Assembly (NCBI RefSeq): GCF_032854445.1
Contig: NW_027017953.1
Location: 1,306,501-1,370,500 of the forward strand
Length of the DNA stretch: 64,000 nt
Direction of reading: 5' to 3'
Origin: Liolophura sinensis
Lineage: Eukaryota > Mollusca > Polyplacophora > Chitonida > Chitonidae
Shown in pieces: positions 6,101-61,658 of the stretch. Numbering within the stretch: the stretch's first letter is position 1; each line of letters begins with the position of its first letter. The translations under genes were made by a program, and so were the position numbers. The notes beneath the pieces were generated by a model that did no database searches, was not told the origin of the DNA, and saw nothing but the letters and a program-made list of their open reading frames with translations.

Positions 6101-9100
6101 AATAAACAGGCAATACAGGAAGAGCACAGGCCCTATCTTATATTCACTGGCTTATGTGTTCAGGGGGTGTATTTTGTCGTAACCCAGTGTTCCTGTGTGT
6201 GGAGATAGTATAGTGAATGTTAATGGCTTTGTACACAGCAACATGATTGTGCAAGATTGCAAGGTGTGTACAAGATTTCCACATCCTAAAGACCGCAACT
6301 CAAATATCAGCCCTTTTGATATTAACTGTAGAATTAGACCAAATGGCCTCCTCTTGCTATGATACGACGGACATAAACACGAAAAGTGACAGGTGTCTGC
6401 AAAACTAAGTCAGCGACTCGTATACCGCATGCATACTATATTATATCAAACAAAATACAGACATTCATGAACTATGGATAAAACAAGAAAAGTCCCAAAT
6501 CAACATATGAAATGTAAGTAATGTATATTTAATATTATTAACGTCTGGTGGAAATCCCCCCGTGTTGGAGCGGATGTCTGTATTTTAGCCTCATTGTTTC
6601 TTTTTTACTCGTCACAGAAATGTGCCTGGTTTTTTCTCGACAACGCTGTAGATTTCACCTCATTTCACGACAGCTACTTCACGAATTAGTGCAAGTTACC
6701 TTCATCACACTCATGGTGAGTAAAAAGATTTCAATAGCGAGCAAACAGCAAAGAGCACTTTTTCGGGTATCTTGGTCAGACATCGTGTTTTAAAATTGGT
6801 TACCCTGTAGACTGACGTGATTGTTTTGTCAACATCCCATATCTTTCACAGCCATCTACCCCTGACTTCACAGTTATCTCCCAATGACTGCGCCAATGTT
6901 GTCTGTATCACAACCATCCCACCTCCTCACAACAACTAGAGTTACATCCTCCCTCACAAACTCAAGTGGAAACGTTACAGGTGGAACTGAAACAATTCTC
7001 ACCACAGGTGAATAACATTTATTTCTCCGTAACCCTGGGTATATTACCGGTGTTGCCCCGTTCCCAGAAGTACATCCTCCAGCACAGACACCAGTGGTAA
7101 CCTCACAGGGGGACTGATACAGTTCTTACTACAGGCGAACACACAGTTATCTTCTCACGACCCTGAGTATATTACTTGTGTTACAGAGTTCCCCTGTGTA
7201 ACAAGAAGTACACCCTCCCTCACACACCAGTGATAACGTTACAGGTACTACTGATACAGTTCTTACCACAGGCTAACAAACAGTTGTCTTCCCACAGCCC
7301 TTGGTATATTAACTGAGTTACAGCGTTCCCCTGTGTAACCAGAAGTACATGTACATTCCCCCTCAGACACCAGTGGTAACATTACAGGCGGGGCTGATAC
7401 AGTTCTTACCACTGGCGAACACACAGTTATCTTCTCACGACCCTGAGTATATTACCTGTGTTACAGCGTTCCCCTGTGTAACCAGAAGTACACCCTCCCA
7501 CACAGGCACCAGTGGTAGCCTTACAGGTGGTCCTGATACAGTTCTCACCACAGATGAATGAACATTTATTTCCCCACGTGCCAGGGTCACATGCTGAAAT
7601 GAAAATAAGGTTGTAATGGTGGTCTATATTTCCATACATTTAAAACTACTAATTCCTAATACGACTAAACACTAGATACCTAATGTGTGGCCAACCTTGT
7701 AATAAGGGGTAAGTCAACGAAAATTAAATCCTAATGTAATCATCGTCCTTATACATAGCGAAAATAGCTGAGGCTTAGATCCAATTTAATAAACTTATTT
7801 AATTATTTATTTGATTGGTGTTTTACGCTGTACTCAAGAATATTTCAGTTATACGACGGCGGCCAGCATTACGGTGGGAGGAAACCGGGCGGAGCCCGAG
7901 GGAAAGCCACGACCATCCGCTGGCTGCTGGCAGACTTTTCACTTACGCCCGGAGAGGACGCCAGCGTGAGCTTAACTTCAACTCACAGCGACCGCATTGG
8001 TGAGAAGCTTCTGGGTCATTACGCTGCGCTAGCGCGCTACTTAATTGAGCCACAGAGGCCCCTAATTTAATAAATAAATATGTAAATAAATAAATAAAAT
8101 TTAAAAGTTATTACTACATGTATTAAGAACTTGTCTGGGAATTCACAAATCTGGTCCTACGGCCCGTTGGTACAAAAAGCCTAAGTCATAACACATCGCA
8201 CACAAACAGGCCTATATTAGCAATCTACTCTTCATGCAGAGGGCTGAAAACTTTTTCTACTTGTCCTTCTGCTAAAACAACGGGCAAATACTGATTTCAT
8301 GACCTAGACACATCTAATTAACATAATTCTGACTGACCAAAAAAAAAAACGATTCCTAATTCGGTTCTTAGACTGTGGCGAACAACGTACTTACAGATAC
8401 AGTGAACTTCTGTGTGTCCTGTGGCACAGCGGGGATTTCCCGGGGCACAGTTCTAAGGCTGTAGCGAACAACGTACTTACGGGGACAGTGAAATTCTGTG
8501 TGCTCTTTGACACAGCGAGGATTCCCCAGGGTACAGTTCTTAGACAGTGACTAACAACGTACTTATGTGTACACTGAAATTCTGTGTGCTCTTAGACACA
8601 ACGAGGATTCCCGGGGTACAGTTCTTAGACGGTGGCGAAAAACATACTTATGGGACAGTGAAGTCCTTTGTCCCTTGGCACAGCGGGCATTTCCCGGGGG
8701 ACAGTTCTTGGGTAGTAATGAACAATCTACTTACGGGTACAGTGGAGTCCTGTGTGTCCTGTGTGTCCTGTGGCACAGCGGGGATTTCCCGGGGGACATT
8801 CCCCACTGATCCTGTCACAGACAGCTCCGCTATTACACTGACCGCAGCTCTCCTTACAGTCAGGACCCCATCTGCACAAGGTGTACGCTGCTTATAAAAA
8901 AAATTCCAGTATTAGTTTTCCTAATAATGATTATACAATCAATCAAAATGACGGTTTTACAGACAGTGCCCATGCTCCGCTCCACACAGGACATTTGTGG
9001 CGGAAATGATTACAAACAAAAATGTGATCCTTGCTTTATACTAGATGCGTACGGAAACATGCACTGGCTACTCGTGATATTTGTTAAGGATAAAAGCTAA

Positions 9101-12100: not shown

Positions 12101-15100
12101 GGGGTTTGGACATTGTTGTAGGTTAACAGGTTCTCAGGGACAGGGGTTTGGACATTGTTGTAGGTTATCAGGTTCTCAGGGACAGGGGTTTGGACATTGT
12201 TGTAGGTTAACAGGATCTCAGGAACAGGGGTTTGGACATTGTTGCAGGTTACCAGGTTCTCATGGACAGGGATGTGGCCATTGTTGTAGGTTATCAGGTT
12301 TTCGGGGACAGGGATGTGGCCATTGTTGTAGACAGGATCTCAGCGACAGGGATGTGACCATTAATTTTCACACAGCAGTGCTTAAATGTACTTTGACGTG
12401 AAGACACAGAGTAGACTGAGATATTTGTCTTATCTTCAGGGCTAACATTTTTATCTGTTTTGTTGATCTACACATAAATCCAAAATGGCCACCCCGTCCA
12501 CAAGAATCACAGTTTTCGTATTCACTGAACATTTTTGACTGCGAGTTTTGTGTTAGAAAGACCACAGTTAGGACAGCGCTTCTTGTGCTGATAAGACGCT
12601 TTTTTTGTTGTCACTTTGTTGTCACGTTGTTGATGTCGACGCTGGTGTGACCGATGTTTAAAACCCTGAACTGTTGGGTTTAAATTCCCATGATCAACTT
12701 TCATTTGACTGAGTGTGAAGTCATCGAGCCACCTTGAATGTTTTTTTTACTCTGTAATGGCCATTTCAGTTTGTGGGACAAGTGTGACCGCTCTATCAAG
12801 TGTCTGGTTTCGTACGTAAGCGTTTACGTATCCGTGTGGTGCTGGTTTTCGCCGTAATGTAATCACGTATCATCTCATTGTCAAGGATTCAAAATTTAGA
12901 GGCAGAGGCTATGTTTCGGGGTGTAGCTGTGTACTGAAAAGTTGTTTCCCCAGGTCAGTGGGCTCTTTCCCGGTAACGGTGACTTTGTGTCATAGCGTAT
13001 TTTTTTTTGATGACCTGTTCAAAGCACCTGCTGGGCTTTCACACAGGTCTGTGTTTCCCTTGGCAGACATGATACAATGTCCTTCAATTCCAAGGCAGGG
13101 TATGAGAATAACACTTTTCCGAGCCGCAGACACGTCATCGCTGTTTAGTGGCGCTAAGATAAGTTTGAAAACTGTCATACCAGCGCATCCACGGTACGGG
13201 TCGGTCTCACGGAATGGCTAGAAAAGGAGGTGGTGGAAGAAGAGATTCAGCCATCCTCGTCACCAAATCAGTGTCCGAAAATAATCTGGGGCTATTGGAC
13301 TGTTTATATTTAACACGACTGAACCTCAGGGATTCATCCACCCTGCTCTCATTCCCCGATGTTCAGGTAAAACTTCCTCTGTGAAATTATTAAGATTGAA
13401 ATTTTACTTGCGTATGCAACTCTAAGATTACGTCTACCGGATCAGAACTGTTTGAATGTGTATGTAGAAAGACTTAGGAAGTTATTGTCCCCATTATTCT
13501 GTTAAAGAGGGCTAAACCTTCGTTTCTTATTTAGGGGGGAAATTTAGACGCCCTCCCGCCCTCCCCATCGTTCTCCACAAGGCGTCACCTTGCATATGCC
13601 AAAAAGAATCAACCTGGGTAGGCTTGTACATACAGCCCTGACATTTTCACTCTTGCCCTAAGCCATATGATATCTTTAGGTTTGTTAATTGTCAAAATAA
13701 AATGGATATTTTATTTAATATACCCGAACCCTGTGGGAAGTGGAAAGGTCCTCAGCAACCTGCGGATGGTCGTGGGTATCTCCCGCGCTCTGCCTGGTTT
13801 CCACCCACCATAATGCTGGCCGCCTTTGTATAAGTGAAATATTCTTGAGTACGGCGTAAAACACCAATAGAATAAATAAATAAATATTTCTTGTATCACA
13901 TCTGGTTCCCGTGTATCCCGGCATGCACCGCGGTGAATATCCCGTCGAGATATAACATATATTCAGTCAGCAACCATCAGACTGAATGCATATGTGGTAA
14001 AAACATTTCGAAAATTACGAAACGTCTTAAGACATTGATCCTTTTCTGTTAATAAGACATTTTTGAGTAATACTTACGGGCTAAACAACGATCGCCTGTG
14101 TAGCCAGCCTGGCATCGTATCCCATCAACCACGGGACATTCTCCGGTCTGTTTATCACAGCCTCTGCTGTCATAGCACTTTCCACACTGGCTCTGGCAAT
14201 GTTCACCATAACGACCTGGGACACATTCTGGAGAAATCAAGATGTCTTATCATGTTTAACTCTGTTTTGTAGTGATAAACTTAGGTAAAACTATGGAAAA
14301 ATGCTGCGGAGTGGTATCAACGTAATGGACCGTGCACCCGAGGATTTGAATCCACTAATTTATAAACTGCGTTACATACAAATAGACCAGAACGTTGGTC
14401 TATTTTATATAAATCTTCTTTTAATCTATACATAAAGTTACTGTCAGGCTTACCTGTAATTTAATTTGTTTCTTGAAATTCTTTATTCGCAGTATATATA
14501 TTTAGTTAGTTGTACGTTTTGGGAATATGTAAGTTTACACGGTCTTTATCTTACCTGCACATTTTGTCCCCGCTGTGTCACACCTGAGACATGCTGTAGT
14601 CGTCACACATTGTCTGTCACACGTCTCACCGTATCGTCCATCTACACACTCTGGGGTACATGTAATCAGACAAAGGAATTGCGATAACGTAATGTACTCC
14701 AACAGAAACAAAGCTTCTGGCTAATTGTCCACATAATACTCTTTAAAAACACTTATTTATTTAATTGTTCTCGAACTTCGTACTCCTGGGTTTTAAGCTG
14801 TAGTTTTGACGGCAGCCCTACACTATTCTGATGTATAAAGTGATATAGGCAGTTGCTCTTTATTTGTTGATCACATTCTTGCGTTCTTAACGGCCTTCGT
14901 CTGTTGAAAGCACTCTCACACTGTTTTGATCTTTATCTGTTGAGAACACTCTCACACTGTTTTGATCTTTATCTGTTGAAAGCACTCGCACACAGTTTAC
15001 GATGTTTATCTGTTGAGAACACTCTCACACTGTTTTGATCTTTATCTGTTGAAAGCACTCGCACACTGTTTACGATCTTTATCTTTGGAAAGCACTACAC

Positions 15101-50800: not shown

Positions 50801-53800
50801 CCAGCTGCACAGCGGGGGTTTCCAGCCGACAAAGTACACTCCCCTGATGTCCTATCACACACAGTATCGTTATAACACTGGCCGCAGCTGGATGCACAGT
50901 TAGTACCCCATTTACCCGCTAGGCACTCTGGAAATAATGAGAGAACATTAGCCACTCCCAAAATTTAATACACTCACCTAGATATAAACAGATATTGTAA
51001 ACCATCTGGTCTTGTTGAATGTGACGTTACTTTTTTTTGTGTGTTTTTATTTTCGATGTTATAACAATTGCTGGGTTTGTAGGTAACCCAAGTCACATCA
51101 GCTGGTCAATAAACCTTACTACAACGTGCAGCCGTAATTTGCTTTCACTCAGTTGTTTTCTTGACATCTGAAATTGAAGTCGAAACACTGGTAACAACAG
51201 TACAAATTGAGGTAACAATAGTACAGGTGAGGTAACAATTGTACAAGTGAGGTAACAATAATACAGATGAGGGAACAATAAAACAGATGAGGTAACAATT
51301 GTACAAGCGAGTTTACAATAGTACAGATGAGGTAACAATAGTATAGATGAGGTAACAATAGTACAGATGAGGTAACAACTGTACAGGTGAGGTAACACTA
51401 GTACAGGAGAGGTAACAATAGTACAAATGAGGTAACAACTGTACAAGTAAGGTAACAATAGTACAGGTGAGGTAACAATACTACAGGGGAGGCATCAATA
51501 CTACAGCTGAGGCAACAATATAACAAGTAAGGTAACAATAGTACAGGTGAGGTAACAATAGTAAATATGGGGTAACAATAGTATAGGTGAGGTAGCAATA
51601 ACACAGGTGAGGTAACAACAGTACAGGTGAGGTAGCAATAGAACAGGTAACAATAGTCCAGATGAGGTAACAATAGTACAGATAAGGTAACAATAGTACA
51701 GGTAAGGTAACAATAGTCCAGATGAGGTACCAATAGTACAGAGAAGGTAACAATAGTACAGGTGGAGTAAGAATGGTACAGGTGGGGTAAGAATAGTGTA
51801 GCTAACAACAGAACAGATAACAATAGTACATTTATTTATTTCATTGGTGTTTTACGCCTTACTCAAGAATATTTCACTCATACGACGGCGGCAAGCATTA
51901 TGGTGGGAGGAAACGAAAACATACGACCGGAGATGAAGCCAGCATGAGCGATCGCATTGGTGAGAGACTCCTGGGTCAAACAACAGTACAGATGAGGTAA
52001 CAATAGTAAAGGCGAGGTAACAATAGTACAGATGGGGTAAGAATAGTGTACACATTACAAGGAGTAAAACAGGAACATAATAATGCATATTTCACTTCGA
52101 ATGTTAGGTTCAAAAGGTAAGCATGTAGGGTTCACCCCCTTTTCACCATTCTTCCACCCCCCGCTCCTTAGTGGGCCTGTTGAACATCATATGAAGTACA
52201 CTGTACGTAAATGGGGCTGCTGTGGTCAATATTGGAATCTAGAAACTATAAGACTCGTCCATGTTGAGTTTGATTGTTGCATAAAGAAGAGTAATATGTT
52301 ATTTGATTGTCCCGAACACTGTACGAATCGATTGACGCTCCTAAAATTTATCAGTAATGTAAGCAGTAGACCTACTGAGCAAAACTTACCTGTGTCACAT
52401 TTGATCCCCGTGTATCCCGGTATGCATCTTGGTAAGTTAAATCTGTTCGGACAGTGCCCGGATGTTGTGTCACAAAACGTCTTCCCCTGAGCACAGAACC
52501 CACAGCTCCTCCCACAGTCAGGTCCGTAGGTACCTCTTGTACAACCTAGGAGTTTAAAACGACAATATATATGTATTTACGTCTAAGCGCATGGTTTTAA
52601 TTTGGCTTCTCTTTTCGTCGTACTTAAAGTTGGTTTAGTAAATAAAAATACTGATGGCTGAGAGAAACTGGTAACGTCTTGACGAAAAAAAATAGTTGTT
52701 TATAGGAAGAAATTTACAATTAGCCAGAGCTGGGTTTGAACGCTTGGCGCGATTGCACCAAGACATGCAGAACTATGCCAGGTTTCATGAACCATACTAA
52801 GTTAAGTAAATGGCTTAAGTGACATCTATCTGATCACACACGTGAGAGAAAAAAAAATGTATAAGGGAAAATAGTCTTCATAATATTTTAAGGTATAGAT
52901 CCTGATCTTCTAACACTTTTTCTAGAATAGTTCTTACGGTTTAAACAGGGAAGTCCCGTGTATCCGGCCTGGCATCGCAGTCCGTCAGTTACTGGACACT
53001 CTCCTGTTAATTTATCACAGCCTCTGTTGTTGTAACACTTTCCACACAGGGACAGACAATGTTCACCATGACGACCTAGGACACATCCTGCAAACAAACA
53101 ATGTTCACCATGACGACCTAGGACACATCCTGCAAACAAACAATGTTCACCATGACGATTTAAGACACATCCTGCAAACAAACAATGTTCACCATAACGA
53201 TCTAGGACACACCCTATAAACAAACAGTGTTCACCATAACGACCTAGGACACATCTTGCAAACAAACAATGTCACCATGACAACCTAGGACACATCCTGC
53301 AAACAGACAGTGTTCACCATAACGATCTAGGACACATCCTGCAAACAGATAGTGTTCACCATAACGAGCTAGGACACATCCTGCAAACAAACAATATTCC
53401 CCATAAAGACCTAGGACACATCCAGCAAACAAACAGTGTTCACTATAACGATCTAGGACACATCCTGCAAACAATGTTCACCATAACGATCTAGGACACA
53501 CCCTGTAAACAAACAGTGTTCACCATAACAACCTAGGACACATCCTGTAAACAGATAGTGTTCACCATAACGAGCTAGGACACATCTTGCAAACAAACAA
53601 TGTTCACCATAACGAGTTAGGACACATCCTGCAAACCCACAGTGTTCACCATGACGACCTAGGACATATCCTGCAAACAGACAGTGTTCACCATAACGAT
53701 CTAGGACACACCCTATAAACAAACAGTGTTCACCATAACGACCTAGGACACATCTTGCAAACAAACAATGTCACCATGACGACCTAGGACACATCCTGCA

Positions 53801-56800
53801 AACAGACAGTGTTCACCATAACGATCTAGGACACATCCTGCAAACAGATAGTGTTCACCATAACGAGCTAGGACACATCCTGCAAACAAACAATATTCCC
53901 CATAAAGACCTAGGACACATCCAGCAAACAAACAGTGTTCACTATAACGATCTAGGACACATCCTGCAAACAATGTTCACCATAACGATCTAGGACACAC
54001 CCTGTAAACAAACAGTGTTCACCATAACAACCTAGGACACATCCTGTAAACAGATAGTGTTCACCATAACGAGCTAGGACACATCTTGCAAACAAACAAT
54101 GTTCACCATAACGAGTTAGGACACATCCTGCAAACAGACAGTGTTCACCATGACGACCTAGGACATATCCTGCAAACAGACAGTGTTCACCATAACGATC
54201 TAGGACACATCCTGCAAACAGACAGTGTTCATTATAACGAGCTAGGACACATCTTGCAAACAAACAATGTTCACCATGACGAGCTAGGACACATCCTGCA
54301 AACAAACAGTGTTCACCATAACGATCTAGGACACATCCTGCAAACAGATAGTGTTCACCATAACGAGCTAGGACACATCCTGCAAACAAACAATGTTCAC
54401 CATGACGACCTAGGACACATCTTGCAAACAAACAATGTTCACCATAACGAGCTAGGACACATCTTGCAAACAGACAGTGTTCACCATAACGACCTGGGAC
54501 ACATCCTGCAAACAAACAATGTTCACCATAACGAGCTAGGACACATCCTGCAAACAAACAATGTTCACGATAAAGAGTTAGGACACATCCTGCAAACAGA
54601 CAGTGTTCACCATAACGAGCTAGGACACATCTTGCAAGCAAACAATTTCACCATAACGAGCTAGGACACATCTTGCAAACAGACAGTGTTCACCATAACG
54701 ACCTGGGACACATCCTGCAAACAAACAATGTTCACCGTAACGAGTTAGGATACATCCTACAAACAAACAATGTTCACCATGACGACCTAGGACACATCCT
54801 GCAAACAGACAGTGTTCACCATGACGACCTAGGACACATCCTGCAAACAGACAGTGTTCACCATGACGACCTAGGACACATCTTGCAAACAGACAGTGTT
54901 CACCATGACGACCTAGGACACATCCTGCAAACAGACAGTGTTCACCATGACGACCTAGGACACATCCAGCAAACGAACAATGTTCACCATAACGAGCTGG
55001 GACACATCTTGCAAAACAGACAGTGTTCACCATAACGATCTAGAACAAATCCTGCAAACAGATAGTGTTCACCATAACGAGCTAGGACACATCCTGCAAA
55101 CAGATAGTGTTCACCATAACGATCTAGGACACATCCTGCAAACAGATAGTGTTCACCATAACGAGCTAGGACACATCTTGCAAACAAACAATGTTCACAA
55201 TGACGACCTAGGACACATCCTGCAACCAAACAATGTTCACCATAACGAGCTAGGGCACATCTTCCAAACAGACAGTGTTCACCATAACGACCTGGGACAC
55301 ATCCTGCGAACAAACAATGTTCACCATAACGACCTAAGACACATCCTGCAAACAAACAATGTTCACGTTAAAGAGTTAAGACACATCCTGCAAACAGACA
55401 GTGTTCACCATAACGAGCTAGGGCACATCTTCCAAACAGACAATGTTCACCATAACGACCTGGGACACATCCAGCTAACAAACAATGTTCACCATAACGA
55501 GTTAGGACACATCCTGCAAACAAACAATGTTCACCATGACGAGCTAGGACACATCCTGCAAACAGACAGTGTTCACCATGACGACCTATGACATATCCTG
55601 CAAACAGACAGTGTTCACCATGACGACCTAGGACACATCTTGCAAACAGACAGTGTTCACCATGACGACGTAGGACACATCCAGCAAACGAACAATGTTC
55701 ACCATAACGAGCTAGGACACATCCCGCAAACAGACAGTGTTTACCATAACGAGCTAAGACACATCCTGCAAACAAACAATGTTCACCATAACGACCTGGG
55801 ACACATCCTGCAAACAGACAGTGTTCACCATGACGAGCTAGGACACATCCAGCAAACAGACAATGTTCACCATAACGAGTTAGGACACATCCTGCAAACA
55901 AACAGTGTTCACCATTAAGACCTAGGACACATCTGCAAACAAACAATGTTCACCATAACGACCTAGGACACATCTTGCAAACAAACAATGTTCACCATAA
56001 CGATCTAGGACACATCCTGCAAACAAACAATGTTTCACCATGACGACCTAGGACGTATCCTGAAAACAAGCAATGTTCACCATACCGAGCTAGGACACAT
56101 CCTGCAAACAGACAGTGTTCACCATGACGACCTAGGACATATCCTGCAAACAGACAGTGTTCACCATAACGATCTAGGACACATCCTGCAAACAGATAGT
56201 GTTCACCATAACGAGCTAGGACACATCTTGCAAACAAACAATGTTCACAATGACGACCTAGGACATATCCTGCAAACAAACAGTGTTCACCATGACGACC
56301 TAGGACACATCTTGCAAACAGACAGTGTTCACCATGACGACCTAGGACACATCCTGCAAACAGATAGTGTTCACCATGACGACCTAGGACACATCCTGCA
56401 AACAGACAGTGTTCACCATGACGACCTAGGACACATCCAGCAAACGAACAATGTTCACCATAACGAGCTAGGACACATCCCGCAAACAGACAGTGTTTAC
56501 CATAACGAGCTAAGACACATCCTGCAAACAAACAATTTCACCATAACGACCTGGGACACATCCTGCAAACAGACAGTGTTCACCATGACGAGCTGGGACA
56601 CATCTTGCAAACAGACAATGTTCACCATAACGAGTTAGGACACATCCCGCAAACAAACAGTGTTCACCATGAAGACCTAGGACACATCCTGCAAACAAAC
56701 AATGTTCACCATAACGACCTAAGACACATCCTGCAAACAAACAATGTTCACCATAACGACCTAGGACACATCCTGCAAACAAACAATGTTCACCATGACG

Positions 56801-59800
56801 ACCTGGGACGCATCCTGCAAACAAGCAATGTTCACCATAACGAGCTAGGACACATCCTGCAAACAGACAATGTTCACCATAACGAGCTAGGACACATCCT
56901 ACAAACAAACAATGTTCACCATAACGAGCTAGGACACATCTTGCAAACAAACAATGTTTGTAATCATGTTTTATTCAGTTTTGTGGTTATGGACCTGTGG
57001 ATACAGGCATAAAAGGAATCCACGAAATTCCCTGTCCACGACCGGCTCTCAGAAATAGTGGGAAAACTTTTTTTATACGCAAAGGCTGCCCTGTATATTC
57101 TACTCTATGATTTGTTCAAGTCAATCGCGAGACTATCAGAATTTGCTGTTTGTTTTTCACTTTGCTACAGTACAAGGCATGAGGGCAGCAACACAGCATT
57201 GACAAATGAAGAGAACAGATGAGTACAACAAATCAGCCCTTTGAAGCTGTCAATACCTACGTTTATAGGCTCTGAAGAGTAACATTGACCTTAGACATCG
57301 ACACTCACCTCTGACTTCAGGTCAGTAAATCTCCGTATCAACTTTATCATAGGCCATAACTGCACATTCTTACACAAACAAAATGCGTGCACTGCTACTG
57401 ACATAACGACCTCTCGTAGTTGACCTACATTTAAAGTGTGTGCTTGCGGGGGTATAAATCTAACAACGTCTTACATTTAAAGGGTGTGCCTGCGGGGGTA
57501 TGAATCCAAAAACGTCTTACATTTAAAGTGTGTGCCTGCAGGGGTATGGATCCACCAACGTCTTACATTTAAAGTGTGTGCCTGCGGGGGTATGGATCCA
57601 CCAACGTCTTACATTTAAAGTGTGTGCCTGCGGGTGTATGGATCCACCAACGTCTTACATTTAAAGTGTGTGCCTCCAGGGGTATGAATCCACCAACATC
57701 TTACATTTAAAGTGTGTGCCTGCGGGTGTATGGATCCACCAACGTCTTACATTTAAAGTGTGTGCCTGCGGGTGTATGGATCCACCAACGTGTTACATTT
57801 AAAGTGTGTGCCTGCGGGGGTGTGGATCCACCAACGTGTTACATTTAAAGTGTGTGCCTGCGGGGGTATAAATCTAACAACGTCTTACATTTAAAGGGTG
57901 TGCCTGCAGGGGTATGAATCCAAAAACGTCTTACATTTAAAGTGTGTGCCTCCAGGGGTATGGATCCACCAACATCTTACATTTAAAGTGTGTGCCTGCG
58001 GGGGTATGGATCCACCAACATCTTACATTTAAAGTGTGTGCCTGCAGGGGTATGGATCCACCAACGTCTTACATTTAAAGTGTGTGCCTGCGGGGGTGTG
58101 GATCCACCAACGTGTTACATTTAAAGTGTGTGCCTGCGGGTGTATGGATCCACCAACGTCTTACATTTAAAGTGTGTGCCTGCGGGGTGTGGATCCACCA
58201 ACGTGTTACATTTAAAGTGTGTGCTTGCGGGGGTATAAATCTAACAACGTCTTACATTTAAAGTGTGTGCCTGCGGGGGTATGGCCCCACCAACGTGTTA
58301 CATTTAAAGTGTGGTCTTGTTGGTGTATTAATCCACCAACGTCTTACATTTAAAGTGGGTGCCTGCAGGAGTATGGATCCACCAACGTGTTACATTTAAA
58401 GTGTGTGCTTGCGGGGGTATAAATCTAACAACGTCTTACATTTAAAGTGTGTGCCTGCGGGGGTATGGATCCACCAACGTCTTACATTTAAAGTGTGGTC
58501 TTGTTGGTGTATTAATCCACCAACGTCTTACATTTAAAGTGGGTGCCTGCAGGAGTATGGATCCACCAACGTGTTACATTTAAAGTGTGTGCTTGCGGGG
58601 GTATAAATCTAACAACGTCTTACATTTAAAGTGTGTGCTTGCGGGGGTATAAATCTAACAACGTCTTACATTGAAAGTGTGTGCCTGCAGGGGTATGGAT
58701 CCACCAACGTCTTACATTTAAAGTGGGTGCCTGCAGGAGTATGGATCCACCAACGTCTTACATTTAAAGTGTGGTCTTGTTGGTGTATTAATCCACCAAC
58801 GTCTTACATTTAAAGTGGGTGCCTGCGGGGGTATGGATCCACCAACGTCTTACATTTAAAGTGGGTGCCTGCAGGAGTATGGATCCACCAACGTGTTACA
58901 TTTAAAGTGGGTGCCTGCGGGAGTATGGATCCACCAACGTCTTACATTTAAAGTGGGTGCCTGCGGGGGTATGGATCCACCAACGTCTTACATTTAAAGT
59001 GTGGTCTTGTTGGTGTATTAATCCACCAACGTCTTACATTTAAAGTGGGTGCCTGCAGGAGTATGGATCCACCAACGTGTTACATTTAAAGTGTGGTCTT
59101 GTTGGTGTATTAATCCACCAACGTCTTACATTTAAAGTGGGTGCCTGCGGGGGTATGGATCCACCAACGTCTTACATTTAAAGTGGGTGCCTGCGGGAGT
59201 ATGGATCCACCAACGTCTTACATTTAAAGTGTGGGCTTGTGGGGGTATGGCCCCACCAACGTTTATATGTGTGCGTCCCAGGCCTGTGTCATTCAAATGG
59301 ACTGCACAGGAATATGCCAGTTTATCCTACCTTCACATCTTGTCCCCATGGGGTCACACCTCCGGCATGATGTAGTCGTCACACATCTCCTGTTACACTT
59401 CTCACCGTACCAGCCACCTGTGCACCCTAGGGTAATCAGAGAAAGAAATAATGCAGACGTAATGTATTCTTAGAAAAGAAAAATATATATTATTGATAAT
59501 AAATAATAACGGTGTTATTGTATTTATTTTTTTATTTGAAACTAGAGTATTTTCACTGATGCAATGGTGGTCAGTTTTATGGGTGGAGGAAACCGGAGTG
59601 ATTGGGGTAAAACAACCCAAGCTGTGGTTAGTTACACTGAGTAACTTTCCTTCGTGTTACGTTACCCTCACACGCCATACTTGTCGACCCCAACGACCGG
59701 AGACTCTGCTGATCGGGTTTGAATCCACACGTGCCCTGTGGTCAGGGATTGCTAGGAACTTACTCAGTAAGCTCCCGTTCTTGTTTTAGATTTTCTCGTA

Positions 59801-61658
59801 GATAACAGTTATGTGACGTATCTAGATTCCACGGCTGGCATCGACCAATTAGTACACGCCGGTAACTTACCTTCACATCGTGACCCAGTGGGGTCGCATC
59901 TGCGGCATGCTGAAGTCGGAAGACAGGGTCTGTCACACATCTCACCGTACCAGCCGTTTTCACACACTGGTTGTAATCCAGAAACAAAGATGCAATGGTG
60001 CAAACACAGCGATGCAATATTGCAAACATAGCGATGCAATAGTGCAAACATAACAATGAAAAGCAATACTTAGTTCTAGGATTGTATAAAGGCTAAACGA
60101 AGACAAATCGCAAATGAGGTACATCGCAAATCTTACAGTGAAGTGAACATGTTGATCGTGTTTGTATATTAAAATTATACCTACATTTTTTATAGAGAAA
60201 TATTTTTCGAGAACGGCGTGAAACTCCAGCCAAACAAATATATACATGTGCTAAACAAACACTCTGTTACAGTACCTATCTTCCCTACAATTGCTTTCTG
60301 GTCCGCCTGGGTACAACTGTAATTTGCATTAAATATTAATAGTGCTTAACTGGAATTCCGGCCCGACAACTAGAAAATACCTCCAACTCATCTTTGCTAT
60401 GCTTTGCTAGCGGGATTTTCCGTGTATGAATCACATGCTAATGGTTGTGTTGGACATTGATATCGCGACTTTTCCGACTGACGTATTTCTTGCGAATGTT
60501 TTATTCGACTTTTATTTTGTGTTGTAATGTCATCACACACCCGATATGACGCTTAAGTTTTGTCATCAGACACCCGATCTGAGGCTTGGGTTGTGTTGTC
60601 TAAAGTCATCACACACCCGATCTGAAGCTTAAATTTTGTAATCAGACACCCGATCTGACGCTTAAGTTGTGTTGTCTAAAGTCATCACACACCCGATCTG
60701 AAGCTTAAATTTTGTAATCAGACACCCGATCTGACGCTTAAGTTGTGTTGTCTAAAGTCATCACACACCCGATCTGAAGCTTAAATTTTGTAATCAGACA
60801 CCCGATCTGACGCTTAAGTTGTGTTGTCTAAAGTCATCACTCACCCGATCTGACGCTTAAGTTGTATTGCATAATGTTATCAGACAATCGGTTTGATGCT
60901 TAGGTTGTATTCTCAGACATTCAAAATACTCTGTTATTAAGTAATTGGTTTGAGTCTTTAGAGTCGTACTCAGGAATTCGTTATATGCATGAGCGTTCTC
61001 AGGCTTCTGCTTTGGGGGAAGATCATGACTAAATCAGACGAAAACCCTTGACCTAAAGATTTCAGAATACAAAATGTTAGGTTCATTTTGGCCACAGATT
61101 TTTTTCTCTCTAGAACACCATCGCTCGACAGGATTCGATATTGTTGTCATTTTTACATTTCAAGTATCACCCGCCACCACCTTCAACGAATGTCCTTGTT
61201 TGTAATAGGCAAGAGAAGAAGTAACGGATAAGTTTTGTTACTGTAGTCGATCTTATAGCAATTTCCCTTTGAAGCAAGTGGCCTATCTGTTTGAAATAAC
61301 GAGTTATTTGCATTTATTATATAAAAACCCAGTGCAACCGTTTTTTTTTAAAAATTAATTTGATTAATTTACTTGAACCACAATGGATTTGACGTGGTGA
61401 GATCAATGGTACTACCGGATGAAGTTAGTTTGCTTTGCCAAGGCAGATACTTACCATAAAGAAGGACCTCACAAAGTGTAAGTGGTAATTGATTTGACAA
61501 GGAAATCTTGACCCTATTTCCTAGAACTGGACTGGTACACTGATTAGTAATGACGTTGCCGGGACCCCAAGGTACGTTAGCCCTATCCTGATAGCATGCA
61601 GTGTAAATCCCCGGAGAGGTTTCCACAGACACAGTGAATCCGTTCAGCCTGGCACCGC
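32679..61658 (-). CDS. Gene B: FTP/EGF-like receptor tyrosine phosphatase (partial, whole span)
   Basis: Twenty-six well-supported minus-strand exons plus one doubtful 42-nt exon. In order: FTP domain C-half, EGF-like repeats of 32, 32, 50, 52, 51, 53, 53 and 53 codons, a transmembrane exon, two juxtamembrane exons, PTP domain D1 and most of PTP domain D2. D1 has K-x-R-Y, W-P-D-H-G and H-C-S-A-G-I-G-R-T-G, all needed for phosphotyrosine hydrolysis. D2 has lost the WPD Asp and the P-loop Arg. The 5' part (signal peptide, first FTP half) should lie beyond 64000. The last D2 exon was not found between 25.5 and 32.6 kb. The gene is a tandem paralog of gene A in its ectodomain. Role: inferred ligand-controlled dephosphorylation at the plasma membrane. 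Confidence 0.85.
33280..33428 (-). CDS. Gene B: PTP D2, lost WPD loop
   Basis: A 149-nt exon, phase 0 to 2: A-I-K-Q-F-R-Y-Q-K-W-Q-K-K-P-S, ending A-P-I-L-V-H-C plus two bases. W-P-D-H-G of D1 is W-Q-K-K-P here, so the general acid is missing. The Cys remains. Acceptor CTTTCCAG, donor GTGAGT at 33274-33279. Confidence 0.87.
33495..34490. repeat. 25-bp minisatellite, about 40 copies
   Basis: Unit GCTTCGGCAGTGACACAAAG CCCGT with 24-bp variants (GCTTGGGCAGTGACACAAAT CCGC). It begins about 65 bp upstream (coding sense) of the D2 exon 33280-33428. Frames of up to 285 codons here are by-products. Confidence 0.94.
34675..35012. repeat. 23-bp minisatellite, about 15 copies
   Basis: Unit GCGACATGACTGCAGAACAG TAT. 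On the coding strand each unit holds TGTTCTGCAG, an acceptor-like string. Same gene B intron as the 25-bp array. Confidence 0.93.
35755..35877 (-). CDS. Gene B: PTP D2, Y-W exon
   Basis: A 123-nt phase 0-0 exon: N-V-G-I-Y-W-T-D-Q-K-G-T-F-G-P-F-E. It aligns with the K-C-x-Q-Y-W-P exon of D1, but Lys-Cys is gone and Pro is Thr. Acceptor CCAACAG, donor GTAGTC (weak). Confidence 0.8.
36453..36587 (-). CDS. Gene B: PTP D2, F-I-x-T-Q and D-F-W-R-L-V exon
   Basis: A 135-nt phase 0-0 exon: G-F-I-L-T-Q-T-P-L-P, V-V-D-F-W-R-L-V-Y-D-H, R-T-I-V-M-F-D. Typical D2 core. It joins in one exon what D1 splits over two. Donor GTTAGC. Confidence 0.88.
36679..36752 (-). CDS. Gene B: PTP D2, D-Y-I-N-A exon
   Basis: A 74-nt exon, phase 1 to 0: D-R-Y-R-P-Y-L-S-T-P, N-D-Y-I-N-A-V-F-L-P. 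D2 counterpart of the D1 exon 43620-43696. Donor GTAAGC at 36673-36678. No repeat array grew at this junction. Confidence 0.87.
37417..37513 (-). CDS. Gene B: start of PTP D2
   Basis: A 97-nt exon, phase 0 to 1: I-L-E-E-V-T-P-T-L-D-K-A, then L-P-K-N-R-N-Q-I-L. D2 equivalent of the pTyr loop; the Tyr of K-N-R-Y is replaced (N-R-N-Q). Acceptor TTGTGCAG, donor GTTTGG. Confidence 0.78.
37718..37775 (-). other. tRNA-like sequence (SINE head or tRNA pseudogene)
   Basis: Minus strand reads GCTGGTCGAATGGTTTAGAT (A-box-like) and, about 25 bases later, GTTCGAAACCC (strong B box), followed by a run of T. The T stem does not pair well, so it is not a good tRNA gene. Likely the pol III head of a SINE. 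Confidence 0.4.
38029..38178 (-). CDS. Gene B: end of PTP D1 and D1-D2 linker
   Basis: A 150-nt phase 0-0 exon: E-Q-Y-E-F-L-H-E-A-L-A-E-A-L, then a linker and Q-P-K-L-A-A-Q-F-K. The opening Q-Y is the end of the Q-loop in receptor PTPs and the helix closes D1. Donor GTTATT is non-optimal. Confidence 0.85.
39206..39247 (-). CDS. Gene B: possible 42-nt cassette exon in the Q-loop region
   Basis: Between two firmly called exons lies a 42-nt phase 0-0 segment with good signals (AAATTTCAG acceptor, GTAAGT donor at 39200-39205) reading N-P-I-D-N-H-Y-M-A-I-E-E-L-L. Normal PTPs go straight from M-V-Q-T to x-Q-Y-x-F, and the next exon supplies E-Q-Y-E-F-L-H-E-A-L. The segment loosely resembles that same helix, so it could be a diverged duplicate, an alternative exon or chance. 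Low confidence as a constitutive exon. Confidence 0.35.
39372..39507 (-). CDS. Gene B: PTP D1, P-loop and Q-loop
   Basis: A 136-nt exon, phase 2 to 0: S-A-G-I-G-R-T-G-T-F-I-A-L-D, then L-R-Q-Q-R-V-N-M-V-Q-T-Q. With the previous exon it gives H-C-S-A-G-I-G-R-T-G, the full CX5R signature, and the Q-T-x-x-Q-Y loop starts at its end. D1 is predicted active. Confidence 0.92.
39952..40097 (-). CDS. Gene B: PTP D1, WPD loop and catalytic Cys
   Basis: A 146-nt exon, phase 0 to 2: Q-F-H-F-T-A-W-P-D-H-G-T-P-S-G, ending P-G-P-I-V-V-H-C plus two bases. It carries the general-acid Asp (WPD) and the nucleophilic Cys. The codon after Cys is split and completed as Ser by the next exon. Confidence 0.92.
40508..40633 (-). 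CDS. Gene B: PTP D1, K-C-x-Q-Y-W-P exon
   Basis: A 126-nt phase 0-0 exon: K-K-C-N-Q-Y-W-P-T-E-G-S, F-G-V-I-E-V-T-L-L. The K-C-x-x-Y-W-P motif is diagnostic for PTP domains. Donor GTAAGT at 40502-40507. Confidence 0.9.
40868..40965 (-). CDS. Gene B: PTP D1, D-F-x-R-M-x-W-E-Q exon
   Basis: A 98-nt exon, phase 1 to 0: P-T-D-L-I-I-N-D-F-M-R-M-L-W-E-Q, N-V-G-I-V-V-M-V-T-N-L-V-E. Standard PTP core helix and strand. Donor GTATGT at 40862-40867. Confidence 0.9.
41881..41917 (-). CDS. Gene B: PTP D1, F-I-A-S-Q-G exon
   Basis: A 37-nt exon, phase 0 to 1: G-F-E-K-P-K-T-F-I-A-S-Q-G. Classic PTP motif that follows D-Y-I-N-A-S. Acceptor CAACACAG, donor GTAAAT. Confidence 0.87.
42430..43613 (-). repeat. 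53-bp array copying a PTP exon end and its splice donor, about 23 copies
   Basis: Coding-strand unit: ACAAACGGACACTCGGATTC, TATCAACGCCTCGTATATTA, AT, then GTGAGTAAAAC. Compared with exon 43620-43696 (TCGGATTATATTAACGCCTC then GTATATTAAT and GTGAGTAAAAC) the unit is the last 40 or so exon bases plus the donor and 5-11 intron bases. Many units keep a consensus GTGAGT or GTAAGT. 53 is not a multiple of 3. Confidence 0.92.
43620..43696 (-). CDS. Gene B: PTP D1, D-Y-I-N-A-S exon
   Basis: A 77-nt exon, phase 1 to 0: D-H-S-R-V-I-L-K-P, S-D-Y-I-N-A-S-Y-I-N. This is a strongly conserved PTP core stretch. The donor GTGAGT (43614-43619), the 40 or so exon bases before it and the first intron bases are the unit of the 53-bp array that fills the following intron. 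Confidence 0.9.
44031..44118 (-). CDS. Gene B: PTP D1, pTyr-loop exon
   Basis: An 88-nt exon, phase 0 to 1: K-F-P-V-G-L-H-T-K-H-D-V-A, D-L-P-C-N-R-N-K-S-R-Y-K-N-L. The N-K-x-R-Y motif is the PTP phosphotyrosine recognition loop; its Tyr stacks on the substrate ring in the family. Acceptor AATGTTACAG, donor GTGAGT at 44025-44030. Confidence 0.88.
44119..45669. other. Gene B intron, mostly unique
   Basis: One copy of the dispersed repeat near 44830-44930. No exon between phase-0 donor 45664 and acceptor 44118 is needed: the protein reads continuously across it. Confidence 0.5.
45670..45821 (-). CDS. Gene B: juxtamembrane exon 2 and start of PTP D1
   Basis: A 152-nt exon, phase 1 to 0: G-L-G-V-D-N-V-P-V-Q-M-N-E-A-D, then V-S-A-D-E-F-W-E-Y-Y-H-R-K-K and F-S-A-E-Y-D. 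The E-F-x-x-Y-x-x-x-K stretch is the N-terminal helix that precedes receptor PTP catalytic domains. Donor GTAAGC at 45664-45669. Confidence 0.82.
46109..46215 (-). CDS. Gene B: juxtamembrane exon 1
   Basis: A 107-nt exon, phase 2 in and phase 1 out: R-R-R-S-S-S-A-S-N-D-R-K-I-S-F-S-R-N-P-V-G-R-P-E-D-Q. Basic, Ser-rich cytoplasmic linker just inside the membrane. The acceptor has two in-frame AGs three bases apart (AAAAGGAG), so plus or minus one Arg is possible. Donor GTATAT is weak but gives the phase the next exon needs. Confidence 0.65.
46663..46768 (-). CDS. Gene B: transmembrane exon
   Basis: A 106-nt exon entered in phase 1 and left in phase 2: M-E-I-T-V-S-Q-D-S-S-T-G-K then I-A-G-G-I-V-G-A-L-F-L-V-A and V-V-V-F-V-I-M-Y-R. 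A single membrane helix with a polar outer flank and Tyr-Arg on the inner side. Acceptor ACAGTTACAG, donor GTAGTT. Confidence 0.8.
46769..47479. other. Gene B intron next to the transmembrane exon
   Basis: No exon recognised. A short G-rich tract (TGGGGTGGTGGTGGGGTGGG) lies near 47078. Confidence 0.4.
47480..48560. repeat. 36-bp array with EGF-exon-end-like unit, about 30 copies
   Basis: Plus-strand unit ACATGTGTTACCTGTCTGAC plus ATCGCTGTCCCGCGTT. On the coding strand each unit reads CAGCGATGTCAGACAG then GTAACA, which would be Q-R-C-Q-T plus a phase-1 donor, just like EGF exon ends here (E-R-C-N-T, I-K-C-D-T). No complete exon of this type was found nearby. Six-frame frames over 300 codons are by-products of the 36-bp period. 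Confidence 0.9.
48561..49122. other. Gene B intron between array and EGF exons
   Basis: Unique sequence with no exon or element recognised. Confidence 0.4.
49123..49281 (-). CDS. Gene B: EGF-like repeat (53 codons), tandem copy 3
   Basis: A 159-nt phase 1-1 exon: A-C-T-D-G-M-W-G-P-D-C, S-G-E-C-P-V-T-E-G-N-P-R-C, G-N-T-D-T-T-C-R-T-R. Last EGF unit recognised before the transmembrane exon. Its donor is GTGAGT (49117-49122), like gene A exon 10295-10453, whereas the other two copies use GTAAGT. Confidence 0.86.
49630..49788 (-). CDS. Gene B: EGF-like repeat (53 codons), tandem copy 2
   Basis: A 159-nt phase 1-1 exon: A-C-T-D-G-M-W-G-P-D-C-K-T-P-C-G-G-C-Y, S-G-V-C-P-V-I-E-G-N-S-R-C. Together with about 340 bp of intron it is a near-identical neighbour of the copies on both sides (period about 505 bp). 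Donor GTAAGT at 49624-49629. Confidence 0.86.
50131..50289 (-). CDS. Gene B: EGF-like repeat (53 codons), tandem copy 1
   Basis: A 159-nt phase 1-1 exon: A-C-T-D-G-M-W-G-A-D-C-K-T-P-C-G-N-C-N, S-G-V-C-P-V-I-E-G-N-P-R-C, G-Y-T-D-T-T-C-R-T-R. First of three almost identical exons. Donor GTAAGT at 50125-50130. It shares A-D-C with gene A exon 10295-10453, where the other two copies have P-D-C. Confidence 0.87.
50365..50430. repeat. 21-bp repeat, three copies
   Basis: GATAATAATGAGAAGAACGA G repeated three times in the intron before the first 53-codon exon. Confidence 0.85.
50775..50927 (-). CDS. Gene B: EGF-like repeat (51 codons)
   Basis: A 153-nt phase 1-1 exon: E-C-L-A-G-K-W-G-T-N-C-A-S-S-C-G-Q-C-Y, S-G-E-C-T-L-S-A-G-N-P-R-C-A-A-G-Y-K-G. 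Eight Cys. Donor GTAAGT at 50769-50774. Same length as gene A exon 8735-8887, but with the normal first Cys. Confidence 0.85.
51190..51830. repeat. 20-bp minisatellite, left part
   Basis: Unit GATGAGGTAACAATAGTACA with variants, about 32 copies. Lies in the intron between the 52- and 51-codon EGF exons of gene B. Confidence 0.93.
51831..51978 (-). mobile_element. SINE inserted in the 20-bp array
   Basis: TTTATTTATTTCATTGGTGT tail on the left, GACGGCGGCAAGCATTATGG body and GATCGCATTGGTGAGAGACT, internally deleted, no tRNA head. Array units lie on both sides. Confidence 0.8.
51979..52045. repeat. 20-bp minisatellite, right part
   Basis: Three units of the 51190-51830 array, continuing after the SINE. 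Confidence 0.88.
52390..52545 (-). CDS. Gene B: EGF-like repeat (52 codons)
   Basis: A 156-nt phase 1-1 exon: C-T-R-G-T-Y-G-P-D-C-G-R-S-C-G-F-C-A, T-S-G-H-C-P-N, L-P-R-C-I-P-G-Y-T-G-I-K-C-D-T-G. Acceptor AACTCCTAG, donor GTAAGT at 52384-52389. Gene A keeps only a fragment of the equivalent exon at 13890-13940. Confidence 0.84.
52938..53087 (-). CDS. Gene B: EGF-like repeat (50 codons)
   Basis: A 150-nt phase 1-1 exon: C-V-L-G-R-H-G-E-H-C-L-S-L-C-G-K-C-Y, G-E-C-P-V-T-D-G, C-Q-A-G-Y-T-G-L-P-C-L-N. Counterpart of gene A 14078-14227. Its acceptor (TTTGTTTGCAG) and first 32 nt form the unit of the 42-bp array directly upstream. The true 5' end is therefore ambiguous: every array unit offers the same acceptor in the same phase. 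Confidence 0.8.
53088..56956 (-). repeat. 42-bp array copying an EGF exon acceptor and start, about 90 copies
   Basis: Coding-strand unit: TTTGTTTGCAG then GATGTGTCCTAGCTCGTTAT GGTGAACATTG. The last unit is the real intron end and start of exon 52938-53087. Each unit has a T-rich tract, CAG and the codons for C-V-L-x-R-Y-G-E-H-C-L in the same phase. With 42 bp (14 codons) the frame stays open through many units until occasional one-base deletions. A roughly 499-bp higher-order repeat is visible at 53.24-53.97 kb. Confidence 0.94.
57437..59255. repeat. 46-bp minisatellite, about 40 copies
   Basis: Unit ACATTTAAAGTGTGTGCCTG plus CGGGGGTATGGATCCACCAA CGTCTT. Variants (GGTCTTGTTGGTGTATTAAT, GGTATAAATCTAACAACG) recur in blocks, so it has higher-order order. 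Each unit contains GGATCC. On the coding strand it reads CCCCCGCAG, 15 bases, then GTAAGA. Confidence 0.95.
59331..59426 (-). CDS. Gene B: EGF-like repeat (32 codons), copy 2
   Basis: A 96-nt phase 1-1 exon: C-T-G-G-W-Y-G-E-K-C-N-R-R-C, S-C-R-R-C-D-P-M-G-T-R-C-E-G. Acceptor TTACCCTAG; the donor GTAGGA is weak. A duplicate of 59871-59966 that gene A lacks. A 46-bp array begins about 75 bp into the following intron. Confidence 0.78.
59522..59755 (-). mobile_element. Diverged SINE copy
   Basis: TTTATTTGAAACTAGAGTAT through GGGTGGAGGAAACCGGAGTG on the plus strand, and GGATTCAAACCC (B-box-like) on the minus strand. A relative of the other SINEs with a different middle part. Confidence 0.55.
59871..59966 (-). 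CDS. Gene B: EGF-like repeat (32 codons), copy 1
   Basis: A 96-nt phase 1-1 exon: V-C-E-N-G-W-Y-G-E-M-C-D-R-P-C, A-C-R-R-C-D-P-T-G-S-R-C-E-G. Six Cys, donor GTAAGT at 59865-59870. Homologous to the next exon and to gene A 14555-14650. Confidence 0.83.
60188..60240 (+). mobile_element. SINE tail fragment
   Basis: AATATTTTTCGAGAACGGCG TGAAACTCCAGCC then AAACAAATATATA matches only the 3' end of the family. Confidence 0.5.
60529..60900. repeat. 76-bp tandem repeat, about 4 copies
   Basis: GTCATCACACACCCGATCTG starts recur at 60605, 60681, 60757 and 60833. Each unit contains two half-units built on ACACCCGATCTGA. Lies between the FTP and first EGF exon of gene B. Confidence 0.9.
61455..61658 (-). 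CDS. Gene B: FTP domain, C-terminal half
   Basis: A 204-nt phase 1-1 exon: G-A-R-L-N-G-F-T-V-S-V-E-T-S-P-G, C-T-S-P-V-L-G-N-R-V-K-I-S-L, ending L-T-L-C-E-V-L-L-Y-G. Same length, phase and motifs as gene A exon 16114-16317. Acceptor CAATATTTCAG, donor GTAAGT at 61449-61454. The N-terminal half is not in the window. Confidence 0.87.

Follow-up and report, generated by a model that had tools for sequence, protein, structure and literature searches.

An array of intron-exon borders in a chiton receptor-like gene

The window analysed here is a stretch of 64,000 nucleotides from the chiton Liolophura sinensis (assembly GCF_032854445.1, contig NW_027017953.1, positions 1,306,501 to 1,370,500), in which a receptor-like gene on the minus strand carries a tandem array composed of copies of one of its own intron-exon borders. 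The assembly was published as Liolophura japonica (PMC11068029), and the species has since been corrected by the authors to L. sinensis (PMC12441733). The array is real and lies in an intron of about 6.2 kb. Tandem Repeats Finder (TRF) resolves it as 93.3 copies of a 42-bp unit with 88% matches, abutting the acceptor of a 150-nt exon (53087-52938; GCVLGRHGEHCLSLCGKCYNNRGCDKLTGECPVTDGLRCQAGYTGLPCLN). This exon is EGF-like by its Cys pattern and is flanked by like exons, 59426-59331 and one starting from 52545. In an assembly search that skips very common words, the array was found at this locus and not elsewhere in the gene family; 24 of 25 sequence matches fall inside it and the remaining one (C14:1320680-1320730) is the head of a paralogous exon. 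Coordinates, given as window positions unless a contig or sampled stretch is named, are collected in Table 1.

In each unit, 31 nt from the exon head are followed by 11 nt from the intron end. A sequence-only reading of the window had correctly placed a 42-bp array next to a 150-nt phase-1 EGF exon, but had divided the unit into 11 and 32 nt, which would total 43. The length is 42 bp in 83 of the 92 full units, 41 bp in five, 43 bp in two and 38 bp in two. At their 3' ends, units carry CAG (58), TAG (4), CAA (17), CTG (7), CGG (3) or GAA (2), and a deletion in one case. AG closes 62 of the 92 units; the last of these is the true acceptor, leaving 61 upstream AGs that recur on the unit lattice (lattice AGs). 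A block of 10 units reappears 12 units away, the pattern that a block duplication would leave.

A neighbouring gene in the window carries a matching exon pair. The head of its exon differs at 3 of 31 nt from that of the array-bearing gene. Just beyond the far edge of the array lie 28 bp that align to the 3' end of the intron in the paralogue. The alignment scores 31, a value attained in 1 of 300 mononucleotide shuffles, compared with 18-22 for five other intron stretches. This match places the ancestral intron tail at the far edge and the exon body at the near edge, with the copied junctions between them. The near-repeat AACATTGTYTGT is found at both edges of the array, in register with the unit. 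Two of the 92 units show a single mismatch in 31 nt relative to the head of the paralogue, and some units may keep older states of the exon.

Other repeats are present in the same region. The units of a second minisatellite in the array-bearing intron often contain both CCCCCGCAG and the word GTAAGA. An EGF-like exon occurs in three tandem copies about 500 bp apart (exon starts 49281, 49788 and 50289), which represents a whole-exon duplication.

Strength, frame and variation of the copied acceptors

Acceptors were scored with a weight matrix trained on 81 nonredundant EGF-type acceptors of the chiton genome. The authentic acceptor at 53087 scores 6.63 (64th percentile in leave-one-out scoring). 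Scores of the 61 upstream copies range from 2.98 to 6.63, with a median of 4.08 at the 33rd percentile; these percentiles are rough, as training sites were chosen with a pyrimidine filter. When the 3448 AGs on the minus strand of the window are scored, those in the array among them, the 95th percentile is 2.76. Judged by sequence, the lattice AGs look like acceptors and score within the range of those of EGF exons, in agreement with their earlier description as decoys, and just three of these junction decoys could extend the protein. Three mid-unit AGs, at 53243, 53201 and 53117, are also in phase and open, but the mid-unit CCTAG sites to which they belong (n=68) have low acceptor scores (median -10.3).

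The sequence-only reading had envisaged about 90 in-phase acceptors, with the same phase-1 site in every unit. This count does not survive, as 30 of the 92 units lack the AG, and 54 of the 61 upstream lattice AGs are out of phase and meet a stop. Four more are in phase and also meet a stop, and three are in phase and open. Most upstream AGs are unable to extend the protein because a 41-bp unit breaks the frame. The sequence-only reading had named frameshifts in the unit nearest the exon as evidence against its proposal; a frame break is present, but in the fifth unit from the exon. An additional 20 sites, that of the partial unit included, read AA|G and provide an acceptor shifted by 1 nt, and all 20 meet a stop. 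The isoforms of variable length that had been proposed, built from 14-residue repeats, are possible for extensions of 14, 28 or 42 residues, the only in-frame options offered by unit-junction acceptors; all those farther out hit a stop.

Variation within the array looks neutral, while the exon is constrained. Distinct unit variants number 46, of which 32 are nonsynonymous (69.6%), 13 synonymous and one a stop, compared with the 67.0%, 29.7% and 3.3%, respectively, expected with the observed transition bias. The ratio of nonsynonymous to synonymous substitution rates (dN/dS) relative to the paralogue is 0.21 for the EGF-like exon, 0.48 for the preceding exon and 0.29 for both combined. Selection preserving the acceptors was rejected, as the splice core is as variable as other unit positions or more so, by a count from the variant table. 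Concerted evolution with the exon was also rejected: the likeness of units to the exon head does not rise towards the exon, and the trend is the reverse if anything (Spearman 0.26, P 0.013). In recursive splicing, ratchet points consist of an AG immediately followed by GT. Position 1 of the unit is G in 92 of 92 units, and position 2 is A in 88, G in 4 and T in none; AG|GT is found at unit junctions in 0 of 92 units, and recursive splicing was rejected.

Table 1 Features of the array-bearing locus and junction-spanning arrays identified in the chiton genome
Feature	Location	Strand	Remarks
42-bp array	53088..56940	-	92 full units
Partial unit, far (intron) edge of the array	56941..56960	-	Final three bases CAA
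EGF-like exon, 150 nt	52938..53087	-	Phase 1 to 1; authentic acceptor at 53087; donor GTAAGA
Upstream EGF-like exon of the same gene, 96 nt	59331..59426	-	
Second minisatellite of the array-bearing intron	57426..59262	-	46 bp x 40
In-phase, open decoy acceptors (three)	53129..53213	-	Exon starts 53129, 53171, 53213; +42, +84, +126 nt
41-bp unit with 1-nt deletion	53256..53296	-	Breaks the frame for acceptors farther out; nearest break, fifth unit from the exon
Ancestral intron tail remnant, 28 bp	56963..56990	-	Counterpart in the paralogous intron, 14276-14249; distance to the first acceptor 21-22 nt in both
Paralogous exon of the neighbouring gene, 150 nt	14078..14227	-	Ordinary acceptor; preceding intron 327 nt, without array
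Donor-side junction-spanning array	8364..8756	-	86-bp unit (exon end + GTAAGT)
Donor-side junction-spanning array	7064..7553	-	143-bp unit (3' part of exon + GTAATA)
Acceptor-side array, EGF-like exon	L085 230-735 (C7:25003829-25004334)		101 bp x 5, 99% matches
Donor-side arrays, EGF exons, C15	L073, L074, L079, L080		79 bp
Donor-side array, EGF exon, C7	L047		~87 bp
Acceptor-side array, kinase exon	L095 1-532		~80 bp; TTTCAG in the same context at six upstream sites
Acceptor-side array, kinase exon	L091 720-1037		37 bp
Donor-side array, kinase exon	L106 38-466		67 bp
Donor-side array, kinase exon	L115 188-531		65 bp
Donor-side array, kinase exon	L147 794-958		76 bp

Junction-spanning arrays at other chiton exons

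At least 133 matches to the EGF-like exon were obtained genome-wide (150 of 254 candidates scored), mostly on contigs C7 and C15 and also on C8, C14, C23 and C2, which suggests a large receptor family. The sample of 76 EGF stretches covers 83 of these 133 listed matches, or 90 with the window included. Arrays or duplications spanning acceptor or donor junctions were identified at several exons, both in the window and in other EGF stretches (Table 1). In the 101-bp array on C7, which is probably young, the four upstream acceptors are identical to the authentic one over 40 nt.

Two samples of other gene families were analysed. The first comprised 40 short protein-kinase exon matches out of 138 listed, picked by length before reading. 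The second comprised 35 matches, 17 of them to additional kinase exons and 18 (out of 19) to ABC transporters. Junction-spanning arrays are found at 5 of the 75 sampled matches, four in the first sample (L091, L095, L106 and L115) and one in the second (L147); match edges come from the profile and only approximate exon edges. L115 was added by eye, its array overlapping the match by 5 nt, short of the 10-nt rule. L138 passed the overlap rule and was dropped by eye, its array starting inside the intron. The rule alone also gives 5 of 75 (L091, L095, L106, L138 and L147). In L095, two of the six upstream TTTCAG sites lie at a distance that is a multiple of three, and in L115 the repeated donors (GTAAGC) are closer to the donor consensus than the authentic GTATGC.

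The periods of the other junction-spanning arrays (37, 65, 67, 76, 79, 80, 86, 101 and 143) are not divisible by three, with the exception of 87 in L047. The divisibility of 42 by three, to which the sequence-only reading had attached meaning, looks incidental, given also that 9 of the 92 units break the frame and that the array shows no coding constraint.

Whether junctions are preferred sites for such arrays depends on the measure, and the kinase/ABC and EGF results disagree. The share of sequence in arrays with periods of at least 15 is 5.6% for the EGF stretches, and 6.7% and 5.3% for the first and second samples, respectively. The kinase/ABC stretches contain 22 distinct arrays, and five of these cross a junction, compared with 1.09 expected under uniform seeding (Poisson P 0.005), in a test designed after the first sample had been seen and with one of the five arrays added and one candidate dropped by eye. 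By sample, 4 were found compared with 0.53 expected in the first, and 1 compared with 0.56, i.e., near expectation, in the second. In the EGF stretches, junction 40-mers copied within 650 nt show no excess (8 of 123 acceptors and 11 of 102 donors, compared with 53 of 486 flanking controls), in counts that include whole-exon duplications and some calls on repeat copies. The nonredundant figures are 6 of 89 acceptors and 7 of 71 donors. We regard it as unlikely, and somewhat more so once the two samples are considered separately, that minisatellites of this chiton lineage arise preferentially at splice junctions compared with other intronic positions. Such a preference would define a genome-wide class of arrays in a mollusc, in which the splicing machinery has to tell the true site from as many as dozens of near-identical neighbours and occasionally yields in-frame extended isoforms.

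The genome searches also returned mitochondrial sequence. Contig C99 carries seven COX1 matches spaced by about 15.5 kb and looks like a mitochondrial concatemer that remained in the assembly, and C632 is a single copy of 15,209 bp. COX3-ND3-ND2-COX1-COX2-ATP6 map to one strand, and ND1, ND6, CYTB, ND4L, ND4 and ND5 to the other; COX1 alone was placed by a family model, the others being named from translations. We take this order to be the ancestral mollusc order.

Origin and tolerance of the array

The structure described here is of a known kind, previously observed in a distant animal group. According to the amphioxus reports, "mirages" are tandem repeats spanning exon-intron boundaries, both 5' and 3', in which many, not all, units keep the AG or GT (PMC3087553), and reverse transcription PCR (RT-PCR) and Adh3 data suggested that regular splicing is undisturbed (PMC3087553; also PMC3902484). 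The genes PGBD5 and TnC were added to the amphioxus mirage genes in the latter. The same sources describe globin units made of intron end plus exon start in BflGb6 or of the 3' exon boundary in BflGb9, and Adh3 units of 10-72 bp, a range that includes the 42 bp found in the chiton. The chiton array is likewise a minisatellite-like repeat that spans an exon-intron border and retains AG in 62 of 92 units. It differs in that its host is not a cephalochordate and in having 92 units, compared with 6 and 3 in the two BflGb6 haplotypes, and in that such arrays also occur in other families, at 5 of the 75 exon matches sampled.

We consider it likely that the array is a neutral, junction-spanning minisatellite of the mirage kind that is tolerated by splicing, and simple tolerance, which the sequence-only reading had listed as an alternative, is the best fit. 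In this reconstruction, the array derives from the border of the EGF-like exon: a 42-bp stretch across its acceptor was duplicated in head-to-tail fashion, and the probable mechanism is slippage or unequal exchange involving two near-identical 12-nt words (AACATTGTYTGT) that flank the splice site 42 nt apart. Later expansion may have proceeded in places via multi-unit blocks. The true exon and acceptor still occupy one edge, opposite the ancestral intron tail. An acceptor-grade AG survives in most units, but the units drift neutrally and are mostly out of frame. Tolerance would most likely depend on exon definition: the spliceosome is expected to pair the exon-proximal acceptor, the one defining a normal-sized exon, with the nearby donor and to ignore the copied borders, and misuse of acceptors farther out would yield stop-containing RNAs.

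Several observations weigh against this interpretation. The authentic score is equalled by 12 of the 61 decoys, and the two nearest are identical to the authentic site over the 23 nt scored (-20..+3), so sequence alone does not explain why 53087 would win. Three other acceptors of this gene, at 59966, 59426 and 52545, score 1.60, 2.26 and 2.65, lower than all 61 decoys. Given these three sites and the filtered training set, the matrix ranks sites only roughly. The gene model is based on homology and splice signals, and a Pfam search with three EGF pieces, including 53087-52938, returned nothing over the cut-off. As to the seeding step, the words were taken from the present-day array edges, and the exon differs from the paralogue at positions 32, 34, 36, 37 and 40, right where these words lie; the array may have altered the exon itself.

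The frame analysis bears on two functional alternatives. An array acting as a functional or allelic length generator, in which acceptor choice adds 14-residue Cys-containing repeats to the ectodomain, could draw on the three nearest decoys, which are in phase and open and two of which match the authentic site over -20..+3. The consensus repeat holds two Cys residues, so pairing could be kept. We regard this explanation as improbable, however, as a stop is met from 58 of the 61 upstream lattice AGs, the units show no coding constraint and other junction-spanning arrays have mostly frame-breaking periods. The same 58 AGs, together with scores that exceed the 95th percentile of the window in all 61 cases, could be read as a poison switch, in which out-of-frame upstream acceptors generate stop-containing RNA and tune expression. 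This is very improbable, since the AGs are not conserved and are absent from 30 units, the splice core varies at least as much as the remainder of the unit, and like arrays at unrelated genes suggest a by-product.

Two further alternatives concern the nature of the sequence itself. Open stretches of up to 231 codons could mean that the array is a single large exon coding for a repetitive protein, an explanation that is largely refuted by the frame breaks and almost certainly wrong: 9 of 92 units shift the frame, the open stretches end in stops, the variants are neutral-looking and the paralogue has a plain 150-nt exon. Tandem arrays are error-prone in assembly and a single haplotype was found, which could make the copy number or even the whole array an artefact. 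We hold this to be most improbable, given that many units have their own variants and indels and that the HiFi reads (mean 8,347 bp, 14x; PMC11068029) can span 3.9 kb.

The array can also be compared with two other known systems. It resembles intron gain by tandem genomic duplication (AGGT model) in that splice-site sequence is copied in tandem; in contrast, the chiton array multiplies an existing acceptor inside an old intron, and no new intron is seen. In NAGNAG-type tandem acceptors, several competing acceptors lie near one exon. The chiton array differs from these in its 42-nt spacing, in its dozens of copies, which are mostly out of frame, and in showing no sign of selection. In the portions of the open-access literature searched, no junction-spanning arrays were found outside cephalochordates; intronic minisatellites and exon duplications are reported for earthworm metallothionein (PMC12783039), in the accessible text of which junction-spanning units are not described.

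Of more interest than the single array is that such arrays recur at unrelated genes. Their presence at unrelated conserved chiton genes suggests that mirages recur in distant animals rich in minisatellites. The locus also constitutes a natural experiment, in which acceptors sharing the same last 20 intronic bases stand 0, 42 and 84 nt from the real exon, and such arrays let proximity and exon definition be tested at constant site strength. Finally, junction-spanning arrays are candidate sources of new exon borders or introns, an idea put forward for amphioxus globins (PMC3087553).

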